This document shows, piece after piece, positions 3,684 to 24,995 of a DNA stretch of 64,000 bases. Numbering within the stretch: the stretch's first letter is position 1; each line of letters starts with the position of its first letter. The DNA lies in NCBI RefSeq assembly GCF_003999995.1, contig NZ_RJAD01000001.1, positions 992,001-1,056,000 on the forward strand. The letters run 5' to 3'. The translations under genes were made by a program, and so were the position numbers. Below the pieces are notes generated by a model. The model had not been told where the DNA came from. It searched no databases and saw only the letters and a program-made list of their open reading frames with translations. Origin of the DNA: Microbacterium sulfonylureivorans. Lineage in GTDB: Bacteria > Actinomycetota > Actinomycetes > Actinomycetales > Microbacteriaceae.

Positions 3684-3710
3684 GGAGGAGTTCACCACAC
3701 GGAGGTCTGC

Positions 3711-6860: not shown

Positions 6861-6909
6861 TTGCGAAACGTTTTTTGCTGGGGTACCGTAACGGGCAAGC
6901 GCTTTCCGC
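6861..6909 (+). promoter_or_regulatory. Promoter with two LacI-type operators for the ABC importer operon
   Basis: TTGCGA (6861-6866) and TACCGT (6884-6889) are separated by 17 bases. GCGAAACGTTTTTT (6863-6876) overlaps the -35, and CAAGCGCTTTCC (6896-6907) lies just after the -10. This arrangement is typical of repression by a LacI-family protein. The leader to the ATG at 7011 is about 110 bases and contains GAGAGGA near the start codon. Confidence 0.7.
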
Positions 6910-9374: not shown

Positions 9375-10294
9375 GCACCACATCCTTCGGCGAACCCGCC
9401 ATCGCCACCCTCGAGAACCAGGTCGACGCGACCCCGCAGACCCCGCGCCGCAAGGTCGCGCGCAAGACCTGGCAGACCGTCATCTGGCTCGTCGTGCTGC
9501 TCGCCATCACCGCCGTCGTGCTCTACCCGCTGGTGTGGCTGTTCCTGTCGACCTTCAAGCCGAACTCCGAGTTCGGCCAGAACCCCGGTCTCATCCCGCA
9601 GAACCCGACGCTCGACAACTACGCCAAGGTCGGCGAGGGGATCGCGGGCGTGCCGATGTGGCGGTTCTTCGCGAACTCGCTCATCATCGCGATCGGCTCG
9701 GTGATCGGAACGGTGCTCTCGTCGGCGCTGGCCGCCTACGCGTTCGCCCGCATCCAGTTCAGGGGCCTCGGCGTGCTGTTCGCCGCGATGATCGGCACGC
9801 TGCTGCTGCCGTTCCACGTGCTGATCATCCCGCAGTACATCCTGTTCCAGCGGCTCGACATGATCGACACCTTCATTCCGCTGCTGCTGCCGAAGTTCCT
9901 CGCCACCGAGGCGTTCTTCGTGTTCCTGCTCGTGCAGTTCATCCGCCAGATGCCCCGCGACATGGACGAAGCGGCCCGCATCGACGGGGCCGGGCACCTC
10001 AGGATCTTCTGGTCGATCATCCTTCCCCTCATCAAACCCGCCCTCATCACGTGCGCGATCTTCGCGTTCATCTGGTCGTGGAACGACTTCCTCGGGCCCC
10101 TGCTCTACCTGACCAGTCCCGAGAACTACCCGCTCCCGATCGCGCTGCGGCTGTACAACGACCAGTCCTCCACGAGCGACTACGGCGCCACGGTCACCGC
10201 CTCCTTCATCGCCCTCCTCCCCGTCCTGCTGTTCTTCCTCGTGTTCCAGCGGTTCCTCGTCGACGGCGTCGCCACCCAGGGCCTGAAGGGCTGA
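9371..10294 (+). CDS. Sugar ABC transporter permease (MalG-type)
   Basis: This 307-residue permease of the carbohydrate uptake (CUT1) class has a long N-terminal extension, six membrane segments and the EAA loop DEAARIDGAGHLRIFWSIILP, followed by WSWNDFLGPLLYL and the C-terminal FQRFLVDGVATQGLKG signature of MalG-like proteins. It forms a heterodimer with the MalF-type permease whose gene it overlaps by 4 bases. The following DUF624 gene starts 4 bases downstream, so it is part of the same transcript. Confidence 0.93.
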   Translation: MSTTSFGEPAIATLENQVDATPQTPRRKVARKTWQTVIWLVVLLAITAVVLYPLVWLFLSTFKPNSEFGQNPGLIPQNPTLDNYAKVGEGIAGVPMWRFFANSLIIAIGSVIGTVLSSALAAYAFARIQFRGLGVLFAAMIGTLLLPFHVLIIPQYILFQRLDMIDTFIPLLLPKFLATEAFFVFLLVQFIRQMPRDMDEAARIDGAGHLRIFWSIILPLIKPALITCAIFAFIWSWNDFLGPLLYLTSPENYPLPIALRLYNDQSSTSDYGATVTASFIALLPVLLFFLVFQRFLVDGVATQGLKG

Positions 10295-10298
10295 GGAC

Positions 10299-10955
10299 AT
10301 GGCCGAGATCACGACGAAGCGCGCGTACCGGGCGGCACGGCGAGCGGATGCCTCGGGCAGCGGCCCGACGCTCGAGGAGCGCCCCCCGGCCCGATACCCC
10401 GGCGCGACCGGCGCGTTCGCGCTGTTCGGCGAGGTGCTCCTGGTCGGCGTGCTCGTGACGGTCGCCGGGCTCGCGGTCATCACGCTCCCCGCGGCGCTGG
10501 CCGCGGGCATCCGTCATCTGCGTCGCTACCTGAACGCCGAGGCGTCGCACGCGCGGACCTTCTGGCAGGACTTCCGCCGGGCACTGCCCGGCGGGATCGT
10601 CGTGGGCGTGGCGGGCGTGGTGATCGCGGCGGTGCTCGTGCTCGACATCGGCCTGGCGAACTCCGGCGCCCTCCCCGGCGGAGCGGCCGTCTCGGTCATC
10701 GGCTGGGCAGGGCTCGTCGCAGGCGCCGTCGCGCTCCTCGCCGCGGCCGGGTCGTGGGCGCCCGACCTCGGGTGGCGCGCCGCGGTGCGGTCGGTGCCGG
10801 CATCCGTCACCGCCGACCCCCGCGGGGCGTTCTACCTCGCCGCGACCGCCGCCTTCGTCGGCATCGCGACCTGGATGCTCGTCCCCATGATCATCCCGGC
10901 CCTCGGCTGCGCGGCTCTCGCGGTCGTCGCGATCCCCACGCGCCGCGGCCGCTGA
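10299..10955 (+). CDS. DUF624-like membrane protein
   Basis: This 218-residue protein has about five hydrophobic segments. An N-terminal VAGLAVITLPAALAAGIRHLRRYL and a following FWQDFRRALPGG resemble the DUF624 (YesL) family, found next to CUT1 sugar importers. It starts at an ATG 3 bases after GAGG, only 4 bases from the permease stop. The biochemical role is unknown; a transporter-accessory or regulatory membrane function is inferred from gene order, as yesL sits in the rhamnogalacturonan cluster of Bacillus subtilis. Confidence 0.72.
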   Translation: MAEITTKRAYRAARRADASGSGPTLEERPPARYPGATGAFALFGEVLLVGVLVTVAGLAVITLPAALAAGIRHLRRYLNAEASHARTFWQDFRRALPGGIVVGVAGVVIAAVLVLDIGLANSGALPGGAAVSVIGWAGLVAGAVALLAAAGSWAPDLGWRAAVRSVPASVTADPRGAFYLAATAAFVGIATWMLVPMIIPALGCAALAVVAIPTRRGR

Positions 10956-10993
10956 ACCCGCCCAATCACGTCACCACCGAGGAGCGAACACCG

Positions 10994-13060
10994 TTGCTGT
11001 ACGGCGCCGACTACAACCCCGACCAGTGGCCGGAGGAGGTGTGGGACGAAGATGTGCGCCTCATGCGCGAGGCCGGCGTCAACGTCGTCAGCCTCGGCAT
11101 CTTCGCGTGGTCGCGCATCCAGCCGGCCGAGGGCGTGTGGGACTTCGCGTGGCTCGACACGGTGATCGGCAAGCTCCACGCGGGCGGCATCCGGGTGAAC
11201 CTCGCCACCGCGACGGCCTCGCCACCGCCGTGGGTGAGCGCGCAGTACCCCGAGACGCTCCCCGCCGACGAGAGCGGCGCGTCCTACTGGCCCGGCAGCC
11301 GGCAGCACTTCGCCCCCTCGTCGCCGACCTACCGGCGCCTCGCGGGCGAGCTCGTGCGGCGTCTGGCCGAGCGCTACGTCGACCACCCGGCGGTCGCGAT
11401 GTGGCATGTCGGCAACGAGTTCGGCTGCCACCTGTGGATGGACTTCTCGGATGCCGCCCGCGACGCCTACCGAGACTGGCTCGGCCGGCGCTACGGCACC
11501 GTCGAGGCACTGAACGCGGCGTGGGGAACCAGCTTCTGGTCGCAGCGCTACGCCCGCTTCGACGAGATCTTCCCGCCGCGCCTCGCCCCGTACAGCCACA
11601 ATCCGTCGTCGATGCTCGACTGGCGCCGGTTCACGTCGGACATGCTCCTCGAGTGCTACCTGATGGAGCGCGAGATCCTTCTCGCCGCCGGCGCGACGCA
11701 GCCGATCACGACGAACTTCATGGGCCCGTTCAAGCCCGCCGACTACGCCGCGTGGGCGCCGCACATGGACGTCATCGCCGACGACTGCTACCCCGACCCG
11801 ACGAACCCGCACCGCATCCGCGACGCCGCGTTCCAGCGCGACCTGGTGCGCTCGCTCAAGCCCGGGGTCCCCTGGATCCTCATGGAGCAGGCGACGGATG
11901 CCGTCAACTGGCGACCGTGGAACCCGGGCAAGCGCCCGGGCGTCCTCGCCGCCGAGACCGCGCAGTCGGTCGGCCGGGGCGCCGACGGCATCATGTTCTT
12001 CCAGTGGCGGCAGTCCCGCGCCGGCAGCGAGAAGTTCCACTCCGCGATGCTCCCCCACGCCGGCACCGGCACAGCGACGTGGCGGAGCGTCACCGACCTC
12101 GGCGAGCGCCTCGGCGCACTGCCCGAGCTGCCGCCGCCGGGGCGCGACGCTCGGGTGGCCCTCGTCTTCGACTGGGAGAACTGGTGGGCGGTCGAAGAGC
12201 GCGACCACCCGGTCGAGATCGACTACCTCGCACTCTGCCTGGAGTGGTACGGCGCCCTGCACTCCCGGGGGCTCATGGTCGACATCGTGCCTCCCGAGAA
12301 GGTCGACGACGGCTACGACCTCGCGATCGCACCCGCGCTGTACCTGCTGCGCGACGAAGGCGCGGCATCCCTCACCCGGTTCGTCGGCGACGGCGGCACG
12401 CTGCTCGCCGGGCCTTTCACCGACATCGTCGACGGTCACGACCAGTTCCGGTCCGGGGGATTCCTCACGCAGCTCGGGCCCGTGCTCGGCGTGAGGTTCG
12501 AGGACTTCGGCGCCCTCGGCGGCCCGACGACCGGTGGCACCGGCGTCGGCGCCCAGGCCGCCCGCGCGTCGGCGGACGGAGACCGCGCCCCGTTCCGCCT
12601 CGGACACGTCGAAGCCACGGGGTCCCTCGTGGCGGAGCTCGTCCACCCGGTCGAGGCGGACGTCGTCGCGTCGTTCACCGACGGTCGCGCCGCCGGAAGT
12701 CCGGCCGTCACGCGACACGCCTTCGGCGCGGGCGAGGGCTGGTACGTCGCGACGATGCCCGACCCCGTGGGGCTCGACGCGATCGTCGGCGCGGTGGTCG
12801 AGGCATCCGGCGTCCGCCCCGTCGTCGCGAACCTGCCCGCCGGCGTCGAGGCGGCGCGGCGCGGCGACCTCGTGACGGTGATCAACCACGGTGACGACGA
12901 GGTCGTGGTGACCCTCGCGGGGACGGATGCCGAGACCGGCGCACCGCTCGGTCGCACGACTCTCCCCGCACAGGGCGTACTGTTCGCGTGGGCTCCGATC
13001 GACTCCGGACCCTCGCCCATGCCGACATCCGTCGACGACTCCGTCGCGACCCCCGCCTGA
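10994..13060 (+). CDS. Glycoside hydrolase family 42 beta-galactosidase
   Basis: This 688-residue cytoplasmic enzyme begins LLYGADYNPDQWPEEVW, typical of GH42, without an upstream ATG; TTG at 10994 (GAGGAG 9 bases before) is the best start. The acid/base is Glu142 in HVGNEFG and the nucleophile Glu298 in ILMEQATDAVNW. A TIM-barrel catalytic domain (about 1-380) is followed by a trimerisation domain and a C-terminal beta domain ending in LPAQGVLFAW. It would remove terminal beta-galactose from galactan or arabinogalactan oligosaccharides, or alpha-L-arabinopyranose in some relatives. It lies between importer genes and the GH51 gene in one operon. Confidence 0.92.
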   Translation: MLYGADYNPDQWPEEVWDEDVRLMREAGVNVVSLGIFAWSRIQPAEGVWDFAWLDTVIGKLHAGGIRVNLATATASPPPWVSAQYPETLPADESGASYWPGSRQHFAPSSPTYRRLAGELVRRLAERYVDHPAVAMWHVGNEFGCHLWMDFSDAARDAYRDWLGRRYGTVEALNAAWGTSFWSQRYARFDEIFPPRLAPYSHNPSSMLDWRRFTSDMLLECYLMEREILLAAGATQPITTNFMGPFKPADYAAWAPHMDVIADDCYPDPTNPHRIRDAAFQRDLVRSLKPGVPWILMEQATDAVNWRPWNPGKRPGVLAAETAQSVGRGADGIMFFQWRQSRAGSEKFHSAMLPHAGTGTATWRSVTDLGERLGALPELPPPGRDARVALVFDWENWWAVEERDHPVEIDYLALCLEWYGALHSRGLMVDIVPPEKVDDGYDLAIAPALYLLRDEGAASLTRFVGDGGTLLAGPFTDIVDGHDQFRSGGFLTQLGPVLGVRFEDFGALGGPTTGGTGVGAQAARASADGDRAPFRLGHVEATGSLVAELVHPVEADVVASFTDGRAAGSPAVTRHAFGAGEGWYVATMPDPVGLDAIVGAVVEASGVRPVVANLPAGVEAARRGDLVTVINHGDDEVVVTLAGTDAETGAPLGRTTLPAQGVLFAWAPIDSGPSPMPTSVDDSVATPA

Positions 13061-13076
13061 AGACCCTGAGGAACCC

Positions 13077-14597
13077 ATGACCGACGCCTCCGCCCGCCTC
13101 GACCCCGCCCGCGTCATCGCCGACATCGACCGCCGGATCTTCGGCGGCTTCGTCGAGCATCTCGGCCGACACATCTACGACGGCATCTTCGAGCCGGGGC
13201 ATCCGTCCGCCGACGCCGACGGCTTCCGCGGCGACGTGGTCGATCTCGTCAAGGAGCTCGGCGTCTCGACCATCCGCTACCCGGGCGGCAACTTCGTGTC
13301 GGGGTACCGGTGGGAGGACGGCATCGGACCGGTCGACGGCCGACCGCGCCGTCTCGACCTCGCGTGGCACGCGACCGAGACGAACCAGGTCGGCCTGCAC
13401 GAGTTCCAGGACTGGCTCGACAAGGTCGGCTCCGACCTCATGCTCGCGGTCAACCTCGGCACGCGCGGCACCGAGGAGGCGCTCGACCTGCTCGAGTACG
13501 CCAACACCTCGGTCGAGACGACGCGCACGCGAGAGCGCGCCGCCAACGGCCGCGAGACGCCGTTCGCCGTGAAGATGTGGTGCCTCGGCAACGAGATGGA
13601 CGGACCGTGGCAGCTCGGCCACCGCAACGCCGACGACTACGGCAAGCTCGCGTCGCGCACGGCGAAGGGGATGCGCCAGCTCGACCCGTCGATCCAGCTC
13701 GTCGTGTGCGGATCGTCCAGCCGGACGATGCCGACCTTCGGCGCGTGGGAGCGCGAAGTGCTCGAGCACACGTTCGACGACGTCGACTTCATCTCCTGCC
13801 ACGCGTACTACGAGGAGAAGGACGGCGACGCCCAGGAATTCCTCGCGTCGGGCGTCGACATGGCGCTGTTCATCGAGTCCGTCGTCGCCACCGCCGACCA
13901 CGTCGCCGCGGTGAAGAAGAGCGACAAGCGCATCATGATCTCATTCGACGAGTGGAACGTGTGGTACCTCTCCCGCTTCAAGGACGAGGAGGAGACGTAC
14001 CGGCCGGATGAGTGGCCCATCGCTCCCCGTCAGCTCGAGGACCAGTACCACGCCCTCGACGCGGTCGTCTTCGGCGACCTGCTCATCACACTCCTGCAGC
14101 ACGCCGACCGCGTCCGGTCGGCGTCGCTCGCGCAGCTCGTGAACGTCATCGCGCCGATCATGACCGAACCGGGGGGCCCGGCTTGGCGGCAGACGACGTT
14201 CCACCCCTTCTCGCTGACCTCGCGGCTCGCGCGAGGACGCGCCGTACGCCTGCCCGTCGTGTCCGCGACGTTCGAGAGCGAGCGGTTCGGCACCGTGCCG
14301 GCGCTGAACGCCGTGGCGACGATCGACGACGCCGGGGCGAGTGTGTTCGTCGCGAACAGATCGACGACGGATGCCGCATCCCTCCGGCTCGACCTCACCC
14401 CGCTGGTCGCCGCCCTCGGCCGCGACCTGACCGTGGTCGAGTCGCACCTTCTCCACGAGGACGACCTCTACGCCGCGAACACGCTCGCCGACCCTGAGCG
14501 CGTGGGCGTCCGACCGCTGGACGGCGTGGAGGTCGAGGCATCCGTCCTCGCCGCCGACCTTCCGCCCGTGTCATGGACCGCGATCCGTCTCGCCTGA
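13077..14597 (+). CDS. Alpha-L-arabinofuranosidase, GH51
   Basis: This 506-residue intracellular enzyme has the GH51 catalytic pair: Glu173 in WCLGNEMDGPW (acid/base) and Glu292 in ISFDEWNVW (nucleophile), at nearly the same positions as in characterised GH51 enzymes. Other family stretches are FGGFVEHLGRHIYDGIF and IRYPGGNFVSGYRWEDGIGP. It releases L-arabinofuranose from arabino-oligosaccharides brought in by the ABC importer of the same operon. The ATG lies 6 bases after a GAGG ribosome site, 16 bases from the GH42 stop. The gene ends the importer operon; a strong hairpin follows. Confidence 0.95.
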   Translation: MTDASARLDPARVIADIDRRIFGGFVEHLGRHIYDGIFEPGHPSADADGFRGDVVDLVKELGVSTIRYPGGNFVSGYRWEDGIGPVDGRPRRLDLAWHATETNQVGLHEFQDWLDKVGSDLMLAVNLGTRGTEEALDLLEYANTSVETTRTRERAANGRETPFAVKMWCLGNEMDGPWQLGHRNADDYGKLASRTAKGMRQLDPSIQLVVCGSSSRTMPTFGAWEREVLEHTFDDVDFISCHAYYEEKDGDAQEFLASGVDMALFIESVVATADHVAAVKKSDKRIMISFDEWNVWYLSRFKDEEETYRPDEWPIAPRQLEDQYHALDAVVFGDLLITLLQHADRVRSASLAQLVNVIAPIMTEPGGPAWRQTTFHPFSLTSRLARGRAVRLPVVSATFESERFGTVPALNAVATIDDAGASVFVANRSTTDAASLRLDLTPLVAALGRDLTVVESHLLHEDDLYAANTLADPERVGVRPLDGVEVEASVLAADLPPVSWTAIRLA

Positions 14598-14693: not shown

Positions 14694-14749
14694 GGAAAGC
14701 GCTTGCGCGTCATTCCATCCCGTGGCAGACTGTTGGAAAGCGTTTACCA
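14694..14749 (+). promoter_or_regulatory. Promoter with two LacI-type operators for the DUF993 operon
   Basis: TTGCGC (14703-14708) and CAGACT (14726-14731) are 17 bases apart. GGAAAGCGCTTGC (14694-14706) covers the -35, and TGGAAAGCGTTTACCA (14734-14749), a 16-base imperfect palindrome, lies just past the -10 near the expected transcription start. The LacI gene at the end of this cluster (18342) is the likely ligand-sensing partner. Confidence 0.7.
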
Positions 14750-14803
14750 GCCGATGTAGCCGTCGGCCGCGCCACTCGAACCATCTGAGGAAAGCAGCCC
14801 CGA

Positions 14804-16009
14804 ATGACTGACACGACTCTCGCCCCGGCCGCCGCCGCGGCACCGTCCCCTCGTCCCGCCGTGCGCGAGGTCGGGATCATCATGAACGGCGTCTCGGGGC
14901 GCATGGGCTACCGCCAGCACCTGGTCCGCTCGATCCTCGCCATCCGCGACCAGGGCGGGATCGAGCTTCCCGACGGGTCGAAGCTGACCGTCAAGCCGCT
15001 CCTCGTCGGCCGCAGCGAGGCCAAGCTCGCCGACCTCGCCGCCACGCACGGCATCGAGGACTACACGACCGACCTCGATGCCGCCCTCGCCGACCCGCGA
15101 TGGGAGATCTACGCCGACTTCCTCGTGACGAAGGCCCGGGCATCCGCTCTGCGCAAGGCGATCGCCGCGGGCAAGACGATCTACACCGAGAAGCCCACCG
15201 CCGAGACCGTCGACGAGGCCCTCGAGCTCGCCAGGCTCGCACAGGCGGCCGGCGTCAAGACGGGCGTCGTGCACGACAAGCTCTACCTGCCGGGCCTGCA
15301 GAAGCTCAAGCGCCTCATCGACTCCGGCTTCTTCGGCCGCATCCTGTCGGTGCGCGGCGAGTTCGGCTACTGGGTCTTCGAGGGCGACTGGCAGCCCGCC
15401 CAGCGGCCCAGCTGGAACTACCGCGCCGAGGACGGCGGCGGGATCATCGTCGACATGTTCCCGCACTGGAACTACGTGCTCGAGAACCTGTTCGGCGAGG
15501 TCAAGTCGGTCTACGCACAGGCCTCGATCCACATCGCCGACCGCTGGGACGAGAAGGGCGAGCACTACACCGCCACTGCAGAAGACGCCGCCTACGGCAT
15601 CTTCGAGCTCGAGGGCGACATCGTCGCGCAGATCAACTCGTCGTGGACCGTGCGCGTGAACCGCGACGAGCTCGTCGAGTTCCACGTCGACGGCACGCAC
15701 GGCTCGGCCGTCGTGGGGCTCTTCGGAGCGAAGATCCAGCACCGCAACTCCACCCCGAAGCCGGTGTGGAACCCCGACCTCGCCGACGACCACGACTACG
15801 ACGCCGACTGGGCCGAGGTTCCCACGAACGACGTGTTCCAGAACGGCTTCCGCCAGCAGTGGGAGGAGTTCCTCGTCTCGTACGCCGAAGGCACCGAGTA
15901 CGAGTTCGACCTGCTGTCGGGCGCGCGCGGCGTGCTCCTCGCCGAGGCCGGCCTGCAGTCGAGCCGCGAGGGCCGCAAGGTCGAGCTGCCCGCCCTCTCG
16001 CTGGACTGA
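14804..16009 (+). CDS. Gfo/Idh/MocA family oxidoreductase
   Basis: This 401-residue protein has an unusual long N-terminus, then VGIIMNGVSGRMGYRQHLVRS as its nucleotide-binding motif and IYTEKPTAETVDEA (EKP motif). The substrate domain carries GGGIIVDMFPHWNYVLENLFG. It is expected to be an NAD(P)-dependent dehydrogenase of a sugar or cyclitol. The next genes encode a DUF993 aldolase-like protein (5-base gap) and an IolE-like TIM barrel, so this is probably the entry oxidation step of a short catabolic route. It differs clearly from the other two Gfo/Idh/MocA proteins in the window. The substrate is unknown. Confidence 0.88.
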   Translation: MTDTTLAPAAAAAPSPRPAVREVGIIMNGVSGRMGYRQHLVRSILAIRDQGGIELPDGSKLTVKPLLVGRSEAKLADLAATHGIEDYTTDLDAALADPRWEIYADFLVTKARASALRKAIAAGKTIYTEKPTAETVDEALELARLAQAAGVKTGVVHDKLYLPGLQKLKRLIDSGFFGRILSVRGEFGYWVFEGDWQPAQRPSWNYRAEDGGGIIVDMFPHWNYVLENLFGEVKSVYAQASIHIADRWDEKGEHYTATAEDAAYGIFELEGDIVAQINSSWTVRVNRDELVEFHVDGTHGSAVVGLFGAKIQHRNSTPKPVWNPDLADDHDYDADWAEVPTNDVFQNGFRQQWEEFLVSYAEGTEYEFDLLSGARGVLLAEAGLQSSREGRKVELPALSLD

Positions 16010-16014
16010 GCGCG

Positions 16015-17217
16015 ATGACCGACCTGACCCTGCTCGCGGCCGACGGCACGACGACCGCCGCCGCGCTGAACGAGACGCCCGGCTACGCCAAGCCGACCGG
16101 GCCTCTCCGCAGCCGCGTGGCCTACGCCGCCGCGCACGTGGTGCCGAAGACCGCCGCCGACAACACCCCCGGGCAGCCTGCCGAAGTGGACTGGGACGCG
16201 ACGCTCGACTTCCGCCGTTCGGTGTACTCGTGGGGACTCGGCGTCGCCGACGCCATGGACACCGCGCAGCGCAACATGGGCCTCGACGCGGCGGCCACCC
16301 GCGAGCTCATCGCGCGCTCGGCCGAGGTCGCCCGCGAGGAGGGCGGGTCGGTCGTCGTCGGCGTCAACACCGACCACGTCGACGCCGAGCGCATCGCGGT
16401 CGATCAGGTGATCGACGCCTACAAGGAGCAGCTGCACTTCACCGAGGAGCAGGGTGCCGGTCCGGTGCTCATGGCCTCCCGCCATCTCGCGCGGGCCGCG
16501 GCATCCGCAGACGACTACCGCCGCGTGTACCGCGAGGTGCTCGCGTCGGCCACGACCCCGGTCGTTCTCCACTGGCTCGGCACGGCCTTCGACCCGTCGC
16601 TGGAGGGCTATTTCGGCTCGGGCGACTGGCGCGAGGCATCCGCCGTCCTCCTCGAGATCATCGAGGAGAACGTCGACAAGATCGCCGGCGTCAAGATGAG
16701 CCTGCTGGATGCCGCGTCCGAGGTCTCGGTGCGCGAGCGCCTCCCCGAGGGCGTGCGCATGTTCACCGGCGACGACTTCAACTACGTCGGGCTCATCGGA
16801 GGCGCCGACGTCCCCGACGCGGCGCAGCCCTCTCGTGATCCGGCGAGCCCCCGACAGCACTCCGACGCCCTGCTCGGCGCGTTCGCCGCGATCACCCCGG
16901 TCGCGTCGGCGGCGATCCAGGCGCTCGACGCCGGCGATCCGGCACTGTACCTCGAGATCCTGGGGCCGACCGAGGAGCTCAGCCGCCAGGTCTTCGCCGC
17001 GCCGACGTTCTACTACAAGACCGGCGTCGCGTTCCTGTCGTGGCTGAACGGCCATCAGTCCGCGTTCCAGATGGTGGGCGGCCTGCACTCGGCGCGGAGC
17101 CTGCCCCACCTGTCGCGCATCGTCGAGCTCGCCAACGCGTCGCTCGCCCTCGAGCAGCCCGGGCTCGCCGCCGAACGGTGGCACGGGATGCTCCGCCTGA
17201 ACGGAGTGGACGCATGA
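16015..17217 (+). CDS. DUF993 family, dihydrodipicolinate-synthase-like aldolase candidate
   Basis: This 400-residue TIM-barrel protein matches the DUF993 family by its VNTDHVDAERIAVDQVIDAYKEQ, VVLHWLGTAFDP and IAGVKMSLLDAASE stretches; the Lys in VKMSLLD is at the place where the Schiff-base Lys of DHDPS-like aldolases is expected. No reaction has been shown for the family that I know of. Lying between a Gfo/Idh/MocA dehydrogenase and an IolE-like isomerase/dehydratase, a C-C bond cleavage of an oxidised sugar is the natural guess. Its stop overlaps an ATG (17214) that opens a 43-codon micro-ORF in an inserted segment. Confidence 0.85.
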   Translation: MTDLTLLAADGTTTAAALNETPGYAKPTGPLRSRVAYAAAHVVPKTAADNTPGQPAEVDWDATLDFRRSVYSWGLGVADAMDTAQRNMGLDAAATRELIARSAEVAREEGGSVVVGVNTDHVDAERIAVDQVIDAYKEQLHFTEEQGAGPVLMASRHLARAAASADDYRRVYREVLASATTPVVLHWLGTAFDPSLEGYFGSGDWREASAVLLEIIEENVDKIAGVKMSLLDAASEVSVRERLPEGVRMFTGDDFNYVGLIGGADVPDAAQPSRDPASPRQHSDALLGAFAAITPVASAAIQALDAGDPALYLEILGPTEELSRQVFAAPTFYYKTGVAFLSWLNGHQSAFQMVGGLHSARSLPHLSRIVELANASLALEQPGLAAERWHGMLRLNGVDA

Positions 17218-17345
17218 CCCCGGCATCCTTCCCCACCTCCCCCGCATCCGTGTCCCAGTTCTTCCCGCTATGCGTTCTGCAGAGCAAGCCGAACCGGGAC
17301 ATGAACCGAACGAAGTGGGACACGAAGACCGGAGTGGACGCATGA
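17202..17345 (+). repeat. 128-bp insertion bounded by a 16-bp direct repeat
   Basis: CGGAGTGGACGCATGA occurs at 17202-17217 and again at 17330-17345, exactly 128 bases apart, at the end of the DUF993 gene and the start of the TIM-barrel gene. Removing one unit would restore a direct ATGA overlap between the two genes, as seen elsewhere in these operons. Inside, GTGTCCCA (17250-17257) and TGGGACAC (17316-17323) form a terminal inverted repeat around a 74-base core. This looks like a small inserted palindromic element or a slippage-derived duplication. Confidence 0.75.
17214..17345 (+). CDS. Candidate 43-residue micro-ORF inside the inserted segment
   Basis: The ATG at 17214 overlaps the DUF993 stop (ATGA) and the TGA at 17343-17345 overlaps the next gene's ATG (ATGA). 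The frame between stays open for 43 codons. Both starts share the same upstream GGAG, 8 bases away, because they lie in the two copies of the 16-bp repeat. The predicted peptide (starts MTPASFPTSP, ends KTGVDA) has no family I recognise; its last four residues repeat the end of DUF993. It may have no function beyond keeping translational coupling across the insertion. Confidence 0.4.
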   Translation: MTPASFPTSPASVSQFFPLCVLQSKPNRDMNRTKWDTKTGVDA

Positions 17346-18223
17346 ACGCCATCGACCCGCGCCTGTCGATCAACCAGGCCACCATCAAGCACGCGGACCT
17401 CGCCACCGCCCTGCGCGTCACCGCCGAGGCGGGAGTGCCGGCGATCGGCCTGTGGCGCGAGCCGGTGAACGAGGTCGGCCTCGACGTCGCGGCGAGCATG
17501 CTCGCCGACTCGGGGCTGCGCTTCTCGACCTACTGTCGCGGCGGGTTCTTCACGGTCCCCGAGGGCCCGGTCCGCCGCGCTGCCATCGACGACAACCGGC
17601 GCGCGATCGAGGAGACCGCGACGCTCGCGGCCGCAGGCGCACCCGGCTCGAAGGCCATCCTCGTGCTCGTCGCCGGCGGCCTGCCCGACGGGTCGCGCGA
17701 TCTGGCGGGTGCGCGTGGACGGGTCCGCGACGCGCTCGGCGAGCTGGCTCCGGATGCCGCGGCCGCCGGAGTGACGCTCGCGATCGAGCCGCTTCATCCG
17801 ATGTACGTGAGCGACCGCGCCGTGGTGTCGACGCTCGGGCAGGCGCTCGACATCGCCGCCGACTTCGACGCCTCGGTCGTCGGCGCGACCGTCGACACGT
17901 TCCACGTGTTCTGGGACCCGCAGGTGCTGGACCAGATCGAGCGGGCCGGTCGCGAGGGGCGCATCGCGACGTACCAGGTGTGCGACTGGAAGACTCCGCT
18001 CGCCGCAGACGTCCTGCTGAGCCGGCACTACCCCGGCGACGGAGTGATCGACTTCGCTTCGCTCACCCGCGCCGTCGAGGCGACCGGCTATGCGGGCGAC
18101 GTCGAGGTCGAGATCTTCAACGCCGACGTCTGGGCGACCGACCCGCGCGTCGCGGTGCAGCGGACGGCCGCCGGGTTCCAGGCCGCGGTGTCGCCCTACC
18201 TGCGCGTTCCGGTCGCAGGCTGA
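17342..18223 (+). CDS. Sugar phosphate isomerase/epimerase-like TIM barrel (IolE/xylose-isomerase-like)
   Basis: This 293-residue protein has the AP-endonuclease-2-like fold: LSINQATIKHADLATALRVTAEAGVPAIGLWRE, then AIEPLHPMY (metal-binding Glu and His), ATVDTFHVFWDP (Asp/His) and VEVEIFNADVW (Glu). These supply the usual divalent-metal site. Relatives include inosose dehydratase, 2-keto-inositol isomerase and sugar epimerases. I chose the ATG at 17342 because the protein aligns from there; an upstream in-frame ATG at 17270 would lie in inserted DNA. It probably acts with the Gfo/Idh/MocA and DUF993 proteins on one substrate. Confidence 0.85.
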   Translation: MNAIDPRLSINQATIKHADLATALRVTAEAGVPAIGLWREPVNEVGLDVAASMLADSGLRFSTYCRGGFFTVPEGPVRRAAIDDNRRAIEETATLAAAGAPGSKAILVLVAGGLPDGSRDLAGARGRVRDALGELAPDAAAAGVTLAIEPLHPMYVSDRAVVSTLGQALDIAADFDASVVGATVDTFHVFWDPQVLDQIERAGREGRIATYQVCDWKTPLAADVLLSRHYPGDGVIDFASLTRAVEATGYAGDVEVEIFNADVWATDPRVAVQRTAAGFQAAVSPYLRVPVAG

Positions 18224-18341
18224 CCGTGGCATCCGATCTCGGCCGCCCGGTTCCGCGGCGGTCGGCGCGGGCGACGCGCACCTCGGGAAGACGATTGCCT
18301 GGTCAGGCCTGGAACCGGACACAGGCCCTAGACTCAGCCTG

Positions 18342-19379
18342 ATGAGCGAGATGCACGCGCCTGCCCGAGGCGCCGCAACACTGCATGACGTCGCCCGCGA
18401 GGCCGGCGTGTCGCTGGCGACCGCTTCTCGCGTGCTCAACGGATCGACGCGCAAGGTGGCCGAGAGCTACCGCGAGCGCGTCGAGGCCGCCGCCGAGAAG
18501 CTCGGCTACACCGCCAACCTGTCGGCCCAGGCGACGGCGCGCGGAACCTCCGCGATCGTCGCGCTTCTGGTGGCCGACATCGCCGACCCGTACTTCGGCC
18601 AGCTCGCCTCGGGAGTCGCCCGCGGCGCGGACGAGGCCGGGCTCGTCGTGACGATCGCGATCACCGAGCGCGACCCGCAGCGCGAGGTGAAGCTGGTCCG
18701 GGCTCTGCGCGGCCAGCGTCCGCGCGGGCTGATCCTCGCGGCATCCCGCACCGAAGGCCCCGACGCCGCAGGACTGGAGTCCGAGCTCGAAGCATTCTCC
18801 GGCATGGGCGGCCGCGTGGTCGTGCTCGGCCAGGGCGCTGCCGGGCAGCGCTCGGTCGGCCTCGACAACCACGGCGGCGCCGTGGCGCTCGGCGCCCGGC
18901 TCGCCGGCCTCGGCTACCGCGACGCGGTCGTGATCGCGGCCGCCGAGGGCATCCGGACGTCGGACGACCGCGTCGCCGGGTTCACCTCGGGCTTCTCGGA
19001 CGGCGGCGGCACGGTCCGCGAGGTGCGCCGCGGCGGCTTCACACGCGACGCCGGCTACGCCACCGCGCAGGAGCTCATCGCCGACGGTCTCGCACCGGGC
19101 ACGGTCGTGTTCGGGATCAGCGACGTGGTCGCGATCGGCATCATGTCGGCCCTGCGCGACGCCGGGCTGCGGGTCGGCGACGACATCGCCGTCGCGGGCT
19201 TCGACGACATCGCGACGGGTCGCGACATCCGCCCCGGGCTCACCACGGTGCGCGTGCCCCTCGAAGACCTCGGCTACCGCGCGCTGCACGCGGCGATCGA
19301 GGCGGACTGGGACCCGGCGGCCGAGCCGCCGCTGCCGCTCGAGGTCGTCGTGCGCGGCAGCACCCCGCCCCGCGCCTGA
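18342..19379 (+). CDS. LacI-family transcriptional regulator
   Basis: This 345-residue regulator has a LacI helix-turn-helix at residues 13-33 (TLHDVAREAGVSLATASRVLNGSTRKV) and a sugar-binding domain with VALLVADIADPYFGQLASG and GFDDIATGRDIRPGLTTVR. TAGACT (18330-18335) lies 6 bases before the ATG, so the message is probably leaderless and the gene has its own promoter despite following the TIM-barrel gene. It is the likely repressor of the DUF993 operon through the paired sites at 14694-14749. No clear operator is seen at its own start, though GGCCTG/CAGGCC flank its promoter region. Confidence 0.92.
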   Translation: MSEMHAPARGAATLHDVAREAGVSLATASRVLNGSTRKVAESYRERVEAAAEKLGYTANLSAQATARGTSAIVALLVADIADPYFGQLASGVARGADEAGLVVTIAITERDPQREVKLVRALRGQRPRGLILAASRTEGPDAAGLESELEAFSGMGGRVVVLGQGAAGQRSVGLDNHGGAVALGARLAGLGYRDAVVIAAAEGIRTSDDRVAGFTSGFSDGGGTVREVRRGGFTRDAGYATAQELIADGLAPGTVVFGISDVVAIGIMSALRDAGLRVGDDIAVAGFDDIATGRDIRPGLTTVRVPLEDLGYRALHAAIEADWDPAAEPPLPLEVVVRGSTPPRA

Positions 19380-19672: not shown

Positions 19673-20674
19673 ATGCCGCGACCGGCGAAGGGTGTGACCA
19701 TCGCGGACGTCGCCGCCAAGGCGGGCGTCTCGCTGTCGACGGTGTCGCGCGCGCTCAACGACAACCCGACGGTCGACCCGGTGCTCGCGGAGCGGGTGAG
19801 GGAGGCGGCGGCATCGCTGGACTACCGCGCCAGTCCGCTCGCGCGGAGCCTCGTGCTGGGACGCACCCAGACCGTCGCCGTCGTCGTGCCCGACCTCGGC
19901 AACCCCACGTTCCAGGAGGTGCTGCGCGGTCTCAGCCGCGCGGCGGCCGCCCACGACTACCACGTGCTCATCGCCGACTCGGCGGAGTCCGTCGACGAGG
20001 AGCGCGTGCTCGCGATCGAGACGCGCCGTCGCACCGACGGGGTGATCCTGTGCGCTCCGCGCCTCCCCCAGGACGAGCTCGACCGGCTCGTCGCCGGCCT
20101 CGGTCCCGTCGTGCTCGTGAACCGCTCCGCCGGCGGCGTCCCGTCGGTGGGGGCCGACTATCGCGCCGCCCTCGGCGACGAGCTGGCCCACCTCTACGGA
20201 CTCGGCCATCGGCGCCTCGTCTACCTGGCGGGCTCCGAGCGCAGCGTCGCCAACGCCGCACGCCTCGACGCCATCGCCGAGTTCGTCGCCGCCCGTTCCG
20301 ACGCCGAGGTCGTCGAGCTCGCCGGAGGGGTCGACTTCGACGCCGGTGCTGCCGCCGCGCCCGCGGTCCTCGGCTCCGGGGCGACAGCCGTCCTCGCCTT
20401 CAACGACCTCGTCGCGATGGGGCTGCAGAGCGCGGTGCAGGCGAGCGGATGCCGCGTCCCCGACGACCTGTCGATCGTCGGGTTCGACGACATCCCGTTC
20501 GCCCGCCACACCACTCCGCCGCTGACGACCGCCGCCGTCCCCGCGGCCGAGCTCGGGGCCAGGGCATGGGCGCAGATGCGGCTGCTGCTGGACGGCGAGG
20601 AGCCGAGCGATCCGGTGTCGCTCCGTCCTTCGCTCGCGGTGCGCGGCAGCACGGGTCCCGCGCCGGCCGCCTGA
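19673..20674 (+). CDS. LacI-family transcriptional regulator of the uronate operon
   Basis: This 333-residue protein has a LacI helix-turn-helix at residues 8-28 (VTIADVAAKAGVSLSTVSRALNDNPTV), hinge SPLARSLVLGRT and a ligand domain with IVGFDDIPFARHTTPPLTT. It starts at an ATG 7 bases after GGAGAA. A palindrome lies upstream (19622-19635) and two inverted sites lie between this gene and the operon at 20737, so it probably represses itself and the uronate/aldarate genes. An aldarate or uronate effector is inferred from the neighbours. Confidence 0.92.
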   Translation: MPRPAKGVTIADVAAKAGVSLSTVSRALNDNPTVDPVLAERVREAAASLDYRASPLARSLVLGRTQTVAVVVPDLGNPTFQEVLRGLSRAAAAHDYHVLIADSAESVDEERVLAIETRRRTDGVILCAPRLPQDELDRLVAGLGPVVLVNRSAGGVPSVGADYRAALGDELAHLYGLGHRRLVYLAGSERSVANAARLDAIAEFVAARSDAEVVELAGGVDFDAGAAAAPAVLGSGATAVLAFNDLVAMGLQSAVQASGCRVPDDLSIVGFDDIPFARHTTPPLTTAAVPAAELGARAWAQMRLLLDGEEPSDPVSLRPSLAVRGSTGPAPAA

Positions 20675-20736: not shown

Positions 20737-22086
20737 ATGAGTCACCGCCGGTACGCCGTCGTCGGAGCGGGCCACCGATCGCAGATGTACATCGATGCGA
20801 TCACCGGCACGTACGCCGACCGCGCGCTGCTCGTTGCGATCTGCGAGCCCAACCCCGTCCGCGCGCAGTTCTACGTCGACCGCGTCGTGGCGTCCGGCGC
20901 GGCCGCGCCCGCCGTCTACGGACCCGACGATCTCGAGGCGATGATCCGCGCGGAGCGGGTCGACCGCGTGATCGTGGTCGCGCGCGACGACCTGCACGCC
21001 GAGCTCATCGTCCGTTCGCTGGATGCCGGTGCCGACGTCGTCGTCGAGAAGCCCCTCACGATCGACGGCCCTTCCGCAGCCGCCATCGAGGACGCCATCG
21101 AGCGCACCGGCCGTGAGGTCGTGATCACCTTCAACTACCGCTACTCGCCGCGCAACACCGCGCTGCGACAGCTCCTGCAGGACGGAACGATCGGCGAGAT
21201 CACGTCCATCGACTTCTCGTGGGTGCTCGACACCAAGCACGGGGCGGACTACTTCCGCCGCTGGCACCGCGAGAAGGAGCACTCGGGCGGTCTGCTCGTG
21301 CACAAGGCGAGCCACCACTTCGATCTCGTCAACTGGTGGATCCGCTCCAGCCCGCAGCGCGTGTTCGCCTCGGGCGGGCTGCGCTTCTACGGCGCCGAGA
21401 ACGCGGCGGCCCGGGGCATCCAAGGCCGTCCTGCCCGCGGCACGCACGACGGCGCCGACGCCTTCGAGCTCGACCTGCGCGAGGACGAGCGCCTCGCGGC
21501 GCTGTACCTCGAGGCCGAGCGGCACGACGGCTACCAGCGCGATCGCGACGTCTTCAGCGAGGGCATCACGATCGAGGACAACCTCGCCCTGATCGTGGAC
21601 TACGCCTCGGGAGCGACGCTGTCCTACTCGCTCAACGCCCATTCCCCCTGGGAGGGCTACCGCGTCGCCGTCAACGGCACCCTCGGGCGTGCCGAGCTCG
21701 AGGTCGTCGAGCGCGGTGCCGTGCTCGCGTCCGGAGGTCTCCACGCCGTGCTCGACCCGAGCGCGGTCGACGCGGGGGCGTCGGGATCGCTGCGTCCGGA
21801 AGGCGAGCGCCTGATCGTCCAGAAGCACTGGGAGGCGCCCTCCGAGGTGCCGATCGTGAACGGCGAGGGCGGCCACGGCGGAGGCGACGCGCTCCTGCTC
21901 GCCGACGTGTTCGAAGGACCGGGCGAGGACCCGCTCGGCCGCCCCGCGGACTGGCGCGACGGGGTGCGCTCGATCGCGGTGGGCATCGCGGGCAACCGAT
22001 CGCTCGAGACGGGCATGCCGGTGCGGATCGACGAGCTCGGCATCCGGTTCCTCGAGTCGGGCGCGTACGTCGCGAACCGGTCATGA
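20737..22086 (+). CDS. Gfo/Idh/MocA family oxidoreductase
   Basis: This 449-residue protein is longer than usual. It has YAVVGAGHRSQMYIDAI (Rossmann motif), DVVVEKPLTIDG (EKP) and VITFNYRYSPRNTALRQLL, followed by KASHHFDLVNWWI. It resembles the subgroup acting on complex sugars or glycosides. It heads an operon with a uronate-dehydrogenase-like protein, KdgD, an enolase-superfamily enzyme and 2,5-dioxovalerate dehydrogenase, so it may oxidise a uronate-containing oligosaccharide or a second sugar acid feeding that route. The stop overlaps the next ATG (ATGA). Confidence 0.88.
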   Translation: MSHRRYAVVGAGHRSQMYIDAITGTYADRALLVAICEPNPVRAQFYVDRVVASGAAAPAVYGPDDLEAMIRAERVDRVIVVARDDLHAELIVRSLDAGADVVVEKPLTIDGPSAAAIEDAIERTGREVVITFNYRYSPRNTALRQLLQDGTIGEITSIDFSWVLDTKHGADYFRRWHREKEHSGGLLVHKASHHFDLVNWWIRSSPQRVFASGGLRFYGAENAAARGIQGRPARGTHDGADAFELDLREDERLAALYLEAERHDGYQRDRDVFSEGITIEDNLALIVDYASGATLSYSLNAHSPWEGYRVAVNGTLGRAELEVVERGAVLASGGLHAVLDPSAVDAGASGSLRPEGERLIVQKHWEAPSEVPIVNGEGGHGGGDALLLADVFEGPGEDPLGRPADWRDGVRSIAVGIAGNRSLETGMPVRIDELGIRFLESGAYVANRS

Positions 22087-23015
22087 CCCGGATCGCCGTC
22101 ACCGGCGGTGCGGGGCGCCTCGGGCGCAGCCTGGTCGCAGGACTCGCCGCCCGCGGGCACGAGCTGATCTCGATCGACCGCGCCGCCTCCGACGCGGCGG
22201 AGCTGGCCGGGGTCGCACAGATCACCGCGGACCTGACCGACGCGGATGCCGCGGCCCGCGCGATCGCGGATGCGCGAGCCGACGCGCTGGTGCACCTCGC
22301 GGCGATCGCCGTGCCTTTCAGCGCGCCCGAGGACGTCATCCTCCGCACCAATGCCGGCCTCGCCCTCAACGTGCTGTCGGCGGGCGTCGCGGCCGGCATC
22401 CCGAAGATCGTGACCGCGTCGAGCCCGACCGTGATCGGCTACGGCGCTCCGGCCGGGTGGCTGCCCGACCGCTTCCCGCTCGACGAGGAGACGGCTCCGC
22501 GACCGTGGAACGCGTACGGGCTCTCGAAGCACCTCGCAGAGCAGACGATCGCGATGCTCGCGCGCCAGACGGGAGACTCGACGCGCTTCGCCGCGTTCCG
22601 TCCGTGCTTCGTGATCGCCCCTGAGGAGTGGGCGGGCGCCCCGACGCAGCAGGGCCACACCGTGCGCGAGCGGCTCGACGATCCGGCTCTCGCGGCGCCG
22701 TCGCTGTTCAACTACGTCGACGCGCGGGATGTCGCGACCTTCGTCGACGTGCTGCTGGACGCGCTCCCGGCGATCCCGAACGCCGAGGTGTTCTTCGTCG
22801 GCGCCGACGACGCCCTCGCCCGCGAGCCCCTCGCCGAGCTGCTCCCCCGGTTCGTGCCGGGCTCCGGCGAGCTCGCCGCCGCGCTGACCGGCACCGCCCC
22901 CGCCTTCTCCAACGCCAAGGCCCGCCGCGTGCTGGGATGGCGTCCCGACCACTCGTGGCGAGAGGACCTCGCCGCCGCAGACTCCCCCGACCCCCGAAAG
23001 GACGTGCTGGCGTGA
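22083..23015 (+). CDS. NAD-dependent epimerase/dehydratase family protein, candidate uronate dehydrogenase
   Basis: This 310-residue extended short-chain dehydrogenase has VTGGAGRLGRSLVAGLA (NAD-binding GxxGxxG), VHLAAIAVPFSAPEDVILRTN, a TASSP Ser and the catalytic pair in WNAYGLSKHLAEQ (YxxxK). Uronate dehydrogenases (EC 1.1.1.203) have this fold and oxidise galacturonate or glucuronate to aldarolactones; at 310 residues this one is somewhat longer. The next three genes encode exactly the following steps to 2-oxoglutarate, which supports the assignment. Alternatives are other sugar dehydrogenases or epimerases. Confidence 0.75.
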   Translation: MTRIAVTGGAGRLGRSLVAGLAARGHELISIDRAASDAAELAGVAQITADLTDADAAARAIADARADALVHLAAIAVPFSAPEDVILRTNAGLALNVLSAGVAAGIPKIVTASSPTVIGYGAPAGWLPDRFPLDEETAPRPWNAYGLSKHLAEQTIAMLARQTGDSTRFAAFRPCFVIAPEEWAGAPTQQGHTVRERLDDPALAAPSLFNYVDARDVATFVDVLLDALPAIPNAEVFFVGADDALAREPLAELLPRFVPGSGELAAALTGTAPAFSNAKARRVLGWRPDHSWREDLAAADSPDPRKDVLA

Positions 23016-23911
23016 ACTTCGACGGCATCCTCTTCTTCCCGGTGACGCCGTTCGACTCGGACGGGCGGGTCGACGACGACCTCCTGCGCGAGCACGTCTC
23101 CACGACCCTCGCGCACGCCCCCGGCGGCGTCTTCCCCGCGTGCGGCACCGGCGAGTTCCACGCCCTCTCGGCCGAGGAGGCCGCGCACGTCGTGACCGTC
23201 GCCACCGAGATCGTGGCGGGCCGCGTCCCGGTCGTCGCGGGCACCGGCGGCCCGCTCGGCCACGCGACGGCGCTGGCACGCGCGGCGGCGGATGCCGGGG
23301 CCGACGCCCTGCTCGTCCTCCCGCCCTACCTCGTGGGCGGCCCCCAGGCAGGGCTCGCCGCCTATGTCGAAGCGGTGGCAGAGGCATCCCCCCTCCCCGT
23401 CGTCATCTACCACCGCGGCACCGCGCAGTACTCCGTCGACACCGTGAGGCGCCTCGCGTCGAACCCGAAGGTCGTCGGCTTCAAGGACGGCGTCGGCGAC
23501 GTCGGACTCGCCCAGCAGATCGTTCGCGCGGTCGCCGAGACCGGGCGCGACGACTTCGCGTTCTTCAACGGCCTGCTCACCGCCGAGCTCACCCAGGGCG
23601 CGTACCGGGGCATCGGCATCCCGCTGTACTCCTCCGCCGCCTTCGCGATGGTCCCCGAGGTCGCGAACGCCTACTACCGCGCCTATGTCGACGGCGACGA
23701 GGTTCGACGCAACGCCCTGCTCGACGGCTTCTACTCGCCCCTCGTGAGGCTGCGCGACGAGACGCCCGGCTTCGGCGTCTCGCTGATCAAGGCCGGCCTC
23801 CGGCTCGGCGGGCTGCCTGTCGGCTCGGTGCGGGCGCCGCTCGTCGACCCGACGCCTGCGCAGGAGGAGCGCCTCGCCGAGATCCTCGAGGCCGGACGAG
23901 CTCTGCGGTGA
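23012..23911 (+). CDS. kdgD: 5-dehydro-4-deoxyglucarate dehydratase (KdgD)
   Basis: This 299-residue DHDPS-family enzyme starts at GTG overlapping the previous stop. It has LFFPVTPFDSDGRVD, PACGTGEFHALSAEEAAHVV, IYHRGTAQYSVDTVRRLA and VVGFKDGVGDVG with the Schiff-base Lys158. These features match KdgD (EC 4.2.1.41), which dehydrates and decarboxylates 5-dehydro-4-deoxy-D-glucarate to 2,5-dioxopentanoate. Neighbours supply its substrate (enolase-superfamily enzyme) and consume its product (aldehyde dehydrogenase). It overlaps the next gene by 4 bases. Confidence 0.9.
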   Translation: MNFDGILFFPVTPFDSDGRVDDDLLREHVSTTLAHAPGGVFPACGTGEFHALSAEEAAHVVTVATEIVAGRVPVVAGTGGPLGHATALARAAADAGADALLVLPPYLVGGPQAGLAAYVEAVAEASPLPVVIYHRGTAQYSVDTVRRLASNPKVVGFKDGVGDVGLAQQIVRAVAETGRDDFAFFNGLLTAELTQGAYRGIGIPLYSSAAFAMVPEVANAYYRAYVDGDEVRRNALLDGFYSPLVRLRDETPGFGVSLIKAGLRLGGLPVGSVRAPLVDPTPAQEERLAEILEAGRALR

Positions 23912-24984: not shown

Positions 24985-24995
24985 AAGGACACCCC

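Follow-up and report, generated by a model that had tools for sequence, protein, structure and literature searches.

A Gfo/Idh/MocA dehydrogenase, a DUF993 protein and a xylose-isomerase-like TIM barrel, encoded in a row in the 64,000-nucleotide stretch of Microbacterium sulfonylureivorans DNA analyzed here (the window), form a real, conserved orphan pathway that is common to many bacteria. That the three make up a conserved functional unit is close to certain. Their role can be stated less firmly: we give about an even chance to the reading that the operon encodes the core of a pathway breaking down an unphosphorylated sugar, or derivative of one, of plant origin, with an exit at glycerate. 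The operon has the following features.

14694-14707: LacI-type operator 1, GGAAAGCGCTTGCG (predicted, motif match)
14735-14748: LacI-type operator 2, GGAAAGCGTTTACC (predicted, motif match)
14804-16009, + strand: Gfo/Idh/MocA dehydrogenase, 401 aa (ORF, Pfam)
16015-17217, + strand: DUF993 (PF06187), 400 aa, DHDPS-fold enzyme (ORF, Pfam, fold model)
17218-17341: gap of 124 bp, an inserted dispersed repeat (sequence comparison)
17342-18223, + strand: xylose-isomerase-like TIM barrel, 293 aa (ORF, Pfam AP_endonuc_2)
18342-19379, + strand: LacI-family regulator, probable operon repressor (ORF, Pfam)

The placement of these four genes by an earlier sequence-only reading is borne out by the ORFs and by Pfam, with E = 4.7e-161 for DUF993, 1.1e-24 for the Gfo C-terminal domain, 1.8e-34 for AP_endonuc_2 and 1.8e-17 for LacI. 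Its description of the operon as compact holds only in part, because a 128-bp insertion splits DUF993 from the TIM gene. The insertion is bounded by a 16-bp direct repeat with copies at 17202 and 17330 (spacing 128), and in all 7 of the relatives used for comparison the DUF993 stop is overlapped by the TIM start (ATGA or GTGA).

ORFs were called by a simple script in GC-rich DNA, and because some of the calls are in the wrong frame, tblastn was used to count genes in the comparison loci. By that count, Gfo and TIM homologues adjoin DUF993 in 79 of 80 loci, mostly actinobacterial, these being the best-scoring of at least 594 and biased to close relatives. The co-occurrence of the three enzymes that had been expected is thus conserved, and DUF993 genes scattered without these partners, the pattern named beforehand as contrary, were not seen in the best 80 of the at least 594 loci. 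On plasmids, the partners are looser. Among 24 plasmid loci, hand-picked from 60 listed of 147 records, tblastn finds TIM orthologues in 16 and Gfo orthologues belonging to the window's subfamily in 8, and 7 have no TIM gene close to DUF993. Read from annotation, an SDR lies near DUF993 in 10 of the 24, and genes for a CoA-transferase, CaiB, enoyl-CoA hydratase or acyl-CoA dehydrogenase stand beside it in 15. These CoA-type genes are unexplained by the route proposed below and, like the 7 plasmid loci without a nearby TIM gene, are counted against it. The DUF993 family has at least 7516 matches (8000 candidates scored), with relatives in actinobacteria and in alpha-, beta- and gammaproteobacteria, and single records in Gemmatirosa and Thermosporothrix, which we take to be two further phyla.

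The DUF993 protein is matched by the DUF993 Pfam model only, with 536.4 bits against a cut-off of 24 over model positions 2-382 of 382. Its predicted structure has a model pLDDT of 91.8, and comparison with solved structures places 4dnh first at TM = 0.91, followed by DHDPS/NAL structures, giving an overall fold of the DHDPS/NAL type. With the enzymes of that superfamily (PF00701) it shares the (beta/alpha)8 fold and a lysine at the Schiff-base place, but it is ~100 residues longer. A profile alignment with DHDPS lays K227 on the DHDPS lysine of strand 6. This is the Lys of VKMSLLD that the earlier reading had nominated, and from its aligned position and invariance it is very likely the Schiff-base lysine. 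H186 is aligned on the strand-5 catalytic tyrosine of DHDPS and T83-A84-Q85-R86 on the TTGE / GxxGE carboxylate-binding loop, both assignments coming from a single profile alignment between distant families, and model residues 83-87 having pLDDT <50. K227, H186, W187, T83, Q85 and R86 are present in 105 of 105 aligned DUF993 sequences, and A84 in 102 of 105, so where DHDPS/NAL enzymes have the strand-5 tyrosine and TTGE, DUF993 has an invariant His-Trp and T-A-Q-R.

Because His186 replaces the DHDPS tyrosine and T-A-Q-R replaces TTGE, a ketone other than a 2-oxo acid is suggested as the substrate, and on these residues we lean slightly toward that reading. Plain DHDPS-type or KDG aldolase chemistry, the former implied by the earlier reading, is not supported, the alpha-keto-acid signature of the superfamily being lost. 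The superfamily includes dehydratases as well, and therefore the fold alone is not proof of C-C cleavage; with moderate confidence, we favor cleavage over dehydration. Tentatively, and at somewhat below even chances, DUF993 might be the first DHDPS-fold group to use its Schiff-base lysine on a ketone that is not a 2-oxo acid, acting as a class I aldolase on keto-sugars that carry no phosphate. The earlier statement that DUF993 has no shown reaction agrees with the literature searched, in which we found no described reaction for DUF993 or PF06187, and NCBIfam also has no match. Nothing relevant to Schiff-base keto-sugar cleavage in a DHDPS-type fold was found there either, nor did literature on related PDB codes, on the genes in combination or on xylose use by pAO1 yield anything bearing on DUF993.

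The Gfo protein has the Pfam N- and C-terminal Gfo/Idh/MocA domains and the EKP motif, its conserved residues being the EKP lysine K130, D217 and H221. The nearest solved structure is 3oqb (E = 4.9e-141), listed only as 'Oxidoreductase'. In the TIM barrel, residues E149, D185, H188, D215, E255 and E257 are invariant, with Q or H at 212; of these, E149, D185 and E255 of the metal site are found in 96 of 96 sequences, and position 212 is Q in 81 and H in 15. By family, we take E149, D185, Q/H212 and E255 to be Glu-Asp-His/Gln-Glu metal ligands. A profile search of solved structures finds 3ju2, 3qc0 (SMc04130-type) and 7vpf nearest, and then IolI, the first named function in the list (E = 5.2e-23) and a closer match than the other named functions checked. 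IolE is absent among the best 60 of 61 solved chains, and the label 'IolE-like' given to this protein earlier is not supported, which leaves an IolE-like dehydratase as a less favored reading. The TIM protein falls below the NCBIfam cut-offs for 5-keto-L-gluconate epimerase (39.5 of 300 bits), hydroxypyruvate isomerase (26.9 of 353) and QuiC (35.5 of 1200).

The two LacI-type sites that had been noticed ahead of the operon are present, starting at 14694 and 14735, and their 41-bp spacing is also found in loci L031 and L051. Allowing up to 1 mismatch, the window contains the pattern GGAAAGCGNTTNC 8 times, against an expectation of 0.44; these matches fall at 6 places, two of which are read on both strands. 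At the same tolerance, GGAAAGCGYTTACC has 3 matches in the whole 3.79-Mb genome, all inside the window, and the reversed control has 0; only two of the 3 are promoter sites, because the match at 1827 falls in a coding start. With a loose pattern, 58 of 79 sequences (the window and 78 loci) show an operator-like candidate site close to the Gfo start or upstream of it. Of the 80 loci, 68 have a LacI homologue no more than 5 kb from DUF993. Repression of the operon through the two sites 41 bp apart is the probable role of the LacI protein. The rest of the locus is as follows.

6894-6907: rare operator, third copy, ~100 bp ahead of the importer SBP gene (motif match)
7011-8303, + strand: importer SBP (Pfam or NCBIfam)
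8379-9374, + strand: first importer permease (Pfam or NCBIfam)
9371-10294, + strand: second importer permease (place in row)
10299-10955, + strand: presumably a DUF624-like protein
10970-13060, + strand: GH42 (Pfam or NCBIfam)
13077-14597, + strand: GH51 (Pfam or NCBIfam)
23012-23911: PF00701 gene, which we take to be KdgD-like (Pfam)
26447-27565, - strand: glycerate kinase (PF02595), putative displaced member of the system (Pfam, gene association)
27632-28345, + strand: ThuA-domain protein, possible accessory (gene position in relatives)

Possibly the rare operator also puts the adjoining importer and GH42/GH51 genes under this LacI protein, in which case the substrate would come from arabinogalactan or pectin side chains. 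Three other LacI-type genes in the window, at 723-1736 (putative), 19673-20674 and 28392-29390, are counted against such shared control. A further operator-like site at 27600, between the glycerate kinase and ThuA, is imperfect in its second half and was given no weight. The surroundings of the operon, with a CUT1 importer, GH42, GH51, uronate oxidation and a galactokinase, likewise point to arabinogalactan or pectin side chains, and the setting among plant-glycan genes supports the earlier suggestion of a non-phosphorylated route. Parts of the importer/glycosidase row recur in the 20-kb loci L028, L034, L037 and L052, and the ThuA gene stands directly after LacI in L038 and L039 and near it in L051.

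The earlier reading had treated the lack of a kinase as a feature of the pathway, which is misleading, as a glycerate kinase is encoded in the window, 9 kb downstream of the DUF993 end, and near DUF993 in many Microbacterium genomes. Its Pfam match is full-length (26450-27565, E = 6.1e-103). Among 66 Microbacterium genomes with DUF993, the PF02595 match is within 6 kb in 36, at 6-40 kb in 16 and farther on the same contig in 3, distances being measured between match starts; 14 have none within 40 kb, 11 of them none on the same contig. In several Microbacterium relatives the kinase comes right after LacI. PF02595 is also matched in 49 of 53 Microbacterium genomes without DUF993, and therefore the kinase has other uses; this, and the 14 genomes with no nearby kinase, weigh against the proposed route. 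A homologue occurs by tblastn in 17 of the 80 loci, 14 of them with at least 45% identity to the kinase of the window, and annotation places a glycerate kinase in 11 of the 24 plasmid loci. Five glycerate kinases from DUF993 loci were typed, three as PF02595 and two as DUF4147/MOFRL. Since glycerate kinases of two unrelated families accompany DUF993 in different bacteria, the product with the best support is glycerate, and it is likely that the route yields it.

Other exits were considered. No hydroxypyruvate or tartronate-semialdehyde reductase was found among the window genes scanned. A linked hydroxypyruvate-type reductase is not supported, a 139-aa partial query having matched only 3 of 80 loci, and a route by way of tartronate semialdehyde was set aside, its reductase being annotated in none of the 24 plasmid stretches viewed. 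In locus L114, a 'hydroxyacid dehydrogenase' is annotated at the edge of the stretch. Dihydroxyacetone as a second product was set aside, a DhaK gene in L119 and matches in 3 of 80 loci being too few.

From family membership, Gfo would use NAD(P)+ to turn one hydroxyl into a ketone, a step for which an SDR dehydrogenase seems to replace Gfo in several other bacteria. The metal-dependent, IolI-like TIM barrel would then isomerize or epimerize the keto-sugar. DUF993, judging from its fold and conserved residues, would form a Schiff base between Lys227 and the ketone and cleave a C-C bond by a retro-aldol reaction. Gene association suggests that the three-carbon fragment may reach glycerate via a clustered aldehyde dehydrogenase, or else a housekeeping enzyme; in the window, the operon contains no aldehyde dehydrogenase, which, like the absence of the two reductases among the window genes scanned, counts against the route. 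Glycerate kinase would feed the glycerate into lower glycolysis.

DUF993 could instead be a Schiff-base dehydratase or hydratase, the three enzymes running oxidation, elimination and hydration of a glycoside or cyclitol, much as levoglucosan or 3-keto-glycosides are degraded, and glycerate coming from the aglycone or a neighboring pathway. The superfamily includes dehydratases, a line that the PF00701 gene of the window resembles, ThuA and glycosidase genes are nearby, and the TIM profile also finds 3-keto-D-glucoside 4-epimerase (E = 3.6e-8). Gfo has weak similarity to levoglucosan dehydrogenase in NCBIfam at 63.1 bits, but misses the 650-bit cut-off by far, and the linkage to two unrelated glycerate-kinase families better fits a cleavage product; we consider the dehydratase reading rather unlikely. 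An inositol-like route, with Gfo making an inosose, the TIM barrel isomerizing it and DUF993 opening or cleaving the ring in IolD's place, would draw on the rank of IolI in the TIM search, after three close structures, and on scyllo-inositol dehydrogenases among the better PDB matches of Gfo. The best NCBIfam match of Gfo is also inositol 2-dehydrogenase (IolG), at 65.7 bits, but this is short of the equivalog cut-off of 355. In the annotation of the 24 plasmid stretches viewed, no kinase or aldolase carries an iol name, the importer at the locus accompanies glycosidases for galactose and arabinose polymers, and to our knowledge glycerate is not among the products of the known iol route. We judge an inositol-like route improbable.

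More improbable still is an oxidative pentose route of the type proposed for pAO1 (Weimberg or Dahms), with Gfo as D-xylose 1-dehydrogenase and DUF993 acting on a 2-keto-3-deoxy acid. In its favor, the pAO1 row has a 62% identical Gfo, DUF993, glycerate kinase and an AldH that is annotated to D-xylose catabolism, and the title of a 2013 paper concerns an oxidative xylose pathway on pAO1; against it, DUF993 is missing the 2-oxo-acid signature, and the annotation of the pAO1 stretch viewed includes no dehydratase of the pentonate type.

Levoglucosan / 3-keto-glycoside and iol pathways share with the operon the pairing of a Gfo dehydrogenase and a xylose-isomerase-like TIM barrel, but we know of neither DUF993 nor a linked glycerate kinase in them, and the window Gfo is below the equivalog cut-offs of both levoglucosan dehydrogenase and IolG. 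The pAO1 sugar cluster of Paenarthrobacter nicotinovorans resembles the operon in its Gfo-DUF993 order and glycerate kinase, and differs in having no annotated TIM gene and its own importer, GMC oxidoreductase and aldehyde dehydrogenase, all in a single row (importer, GMC, aldehyde dehydrogenase, Gfo, DUF993, glycerate kinase). The nearest solved structure to DUF993 is Sinorhizobium meliloti SMc04132 (PDB ID: 4dnh, 44% identity), public since 2012, and SMc04130 (3ju2) is a relative of the window TIM barrel. Both structures are titled hypothetical or uncharacterized, and the literature searched gave no reaction for either. SMc04132 and SMc04133 are tabulated in a section on PhaR regulation of one paper (PMC12542648).

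If DUF993 is indeed a class I aldolase acting on such keto-sugars, it would define a pathway, present in many bacteria, that oxidizes and isomerizes a plant sugar and splits it directly, without a sugar kinase, to three-carbon pieces entering at glycerate. A sugar-cleaving class I aldolase that needs no phosphate would then be available, which would be of use in synthesis, and the DUF993 relatives in rhizobia, in marine bacteria and on a well-known catabolic plasmid would have a suggested function.

The four genes that the sequence-only reading had joined into a catabolic operon are found in the window with strong family matches, and lie among the following features.

1827: match to a tighter operator motif, within the start of an ABC gene
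3636-6822: DUF6807-like, second Gfo/Idh/MocA-like and GH43-like genes in a row (labels by eye)
14694 and 14735: starts of two operator-like sites, 41 bp apart
14804-16009, + strand: Gfo/Idh/MocA dehydrogenase (Gfo)
16015-17217, + strand: DUF993 protein (PF06187), 400 aa
17202-17345: 128-bp insertion with 16-bp direct repeats, between DUF993 and TIM
17342-18223, + strand: xylose-isomerase-like TIM barrel (TIM)
18342-19379, + strand: LacI regulator
22083-26441, downstream: four-gene row of epimerase-family, PF00701, enolase-superfamily and aldehyde dehydrogenase genes
26447-27565, - strand: glycerate kinase

The AlphaFold2 model of the DUF993 protein is confident (mean pLDDT 91.8), and its best structural match is PDB ID: 4dnh (S. 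meliloti SMc04132), followed by structures of DHDPS, MosA, YagE and N-acetylneuraminate lyase. Against 29 sequences of the DHDPS family, profile comparison gives a probability of 95.7 and E = 9.8 × 10−9, and places K227 on the Schiff-base lysine of DHDPS, in agreement with the Schiff-base lysine proposed earlier. In the DHDPS superfamily, a tyrosine and a TTGE loop act on pyruvate or another 2-oxo acid. Where DHDPS has the strand 5 tyrosine, DUF993 has H186, and where DHDPS has TTGE, it has T83-A84-Q85-R86, in a stretch (residues 83-87) modeled at pLDDT below 50. K227, H186, W187, T83, Q85 and R86 are invariant in 105 aligned DUF993 sequences, with A84 replaced by serine in 3. Because the tyrosine and TTGE are exchanged for an equally strict residue set, the alignment suggests a substrate class other than 2-oxo acids. 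In 5 genomes (G339, G343, G361, G373 and G420), the DUF993 match is broken at model position ~262, with 90-189 bp of stop-free sequence between the pieces; this is a variable insertion in the loop at ~264-281, and the window protein has a long version of this same loop. In genome G386, the 2 DUF993 pieces are on 2 contigs.

Gfo retains the EKP lysine, one aspartate and one histidine, as is usual for its family; it reaches the cut-off of no named NCBIfam equivalog, and its nearest structure, 3oqb, is described only as an oxidoreductase. The TIM barrel retains its metal site by alignment. Its profile search puts 3ju2 and 3qc0 ("sugar isomerase" or uncharacterized) and 7vpf, by its label presumably a xylose isomerase, far in front, followed by IolI, 5hmq (which we take to be QuiC), TM_0416 (presumably IolO) and ketose 3-epimerases. 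With these matches, keto-sugar isomerization or epimerization is the likelier role, and dehydration a possible one.

A genome-collection profile scan found at least 594 DUF993 relatives, and in the best 80, fetched as loci, Gfo and TIM homologs are both found no more than 3 kb from DUF993 in all except L093, so that the co-occurrence expected from the sequence alone is indeed conserved (79/80); a LacI homolog lies within 5 kb in 68. DUF993 occurs in 24/296 genomes sampled across the phylum and in 66 of the 119 of the genus. It also has a relative on 147 plasmid records. Among 24 plasmid neighborhoods, hand-picked from 60 listed of these records, 16 have TIM orthologs and 8 have Gfo orthologs of the window's subfamily. 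By annotation, 10 have an SDR dehydrogenase near DUF993, 11 a glycerate kinase and 15 genes of the CoA type. A second version, seen in many plasmid loci that with few exceptions are proteobacterial, places DUF993 beside changing combinations of CoA-transferase, enoyl-CoA hydratase, acyl-CoA dehydrogenase, ETF, GMC and Dabb genes (L108, L109, L113, L115, L119, L121, L122, L124, L126, L128, L129 and L131). One locus, L053, has the contig title Vibrio cholerae strain 35D, with DUF993 and Gfo at 66% and 76% identity to the Microbacterium genes; that assembly is probably mislabeled or contaminated.

The absence of a kinase, first read for the operon, does not extend to the window. In locus L029 a glycerate kinase follows the operon, and its one match in the window's own genome is the glycerate kinase at 26447-27565. 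Across the 66 DUF993-bearing genomes of the genus, a PF02595 match is within 6 kb of DUF993 in 36, at 6-40 kb in 16 (M. sulfonylureivorans itself among them), farther along the same contig in 3, and absent from that contig in 11. Since glycerate kinase is common in the genus (114/119 genomes, and 49 of the 53 that are free of DUF993), it is proximity, not presence, that counts as evidence. Of 5 kinases typed, 3 from actinobacteria are PF02595 and 2 from proteobacteria are DUF4147/MOFRL. Common descent of the gene block would be a rival account of the linkage, but two unrelated kinase families in the same place argue instead for glycerate as a product.

The four-gene row, which we take to be a uronate oxidation pathway, reappears in part in DUF993 loci L031, L051, L086, L096 and others; beyond it follow in order the glycerate kinase, ThuA, a LacI gene and 2 genes presumed to be GalT and GalK. 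Upstream of the operon are a CUT1-type importer, GH42 and GH51, the last meeting the NCBIfam ArfA cut-off. Across the 80 loci (20 kb each, at least 45% identity), glycerate kinase recurs in 14, the first permease in 8, Gfo2 in 7, ThuA in 5, GalT and GalK in 4 each, and GH42 and GH51 in 2 each. The setting is consistent with a source in arabinogalactan or pectin side chains, with no particular sugar singled out. Other neighbors include a protein cluster in 10/80 loci, represented in L079 by a Gfo-DUF6807 fusion right behind TIM; DUF2264 homologs in 7/80; and a large gene directly upstream of Gfo, with a presumably GH95-like start, in L027 (6287-8671) and L029 (6286-8670).

Gfo and DUF993 are 5 bp apart, with gaps of 124 bp from DUF993 to TIM and 118 bp from TIM to LacI; in 7/7 relatives compared (L027, L028, L029, L030, L033, L035 and L051), the stop of DUF993 and the start of TIM overlap. 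The insertion here contains inverted GTGTCCCA-type motifs, resembles 5 other partial genomic copies, and has a core motif, GTGTCCCANTTCNNCC, with 9 occurrences against 0 for the reversed control; it is possibly a small mobile repeat. The pair of LacI-type sites read earlier is recovered as operator-like sites, and their 41-bp spacing recurs in L031 and L051. With a loose operator pattern, 58/79 sequences have a match close to the Gfo start or ahead of it, a raw count that includes any chance matches. The tighter motif has 3 matches genome-wide, all inside the window (reversed control 0): the operon's second operator, a site ~100 bp ahead of the gene for the importer's binding protein, and the one at 1827, which is probably chance.

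A 2013 article among the references of PMC6305408 bears a title on an oxidative xylose pathway of pAO1. The open literature searched, with subscription papers and preprints outside its scope, has no mention of DUF993 or PF06187 and nothing related under the PDB codes. One paper (PMC12542648) tabulates SMc04132 and SMc04133 where it treats PhaR regulation.

The genes first read are thus confirmed, and the interpretation placed on them is supported in part, though not for a pathway that lacks a kinase. To that reading the analysis adds a glycerate kinase linked to the operon, a changed signature in the active site and an operator specific to the locus. The enzyme kind and the catabolic operon kind are both already known. 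The route would oxidize, then isomerize, then split its substrate, with glycerate as the end point, and DUF993 would be a class I aldolase with unusual specificity.
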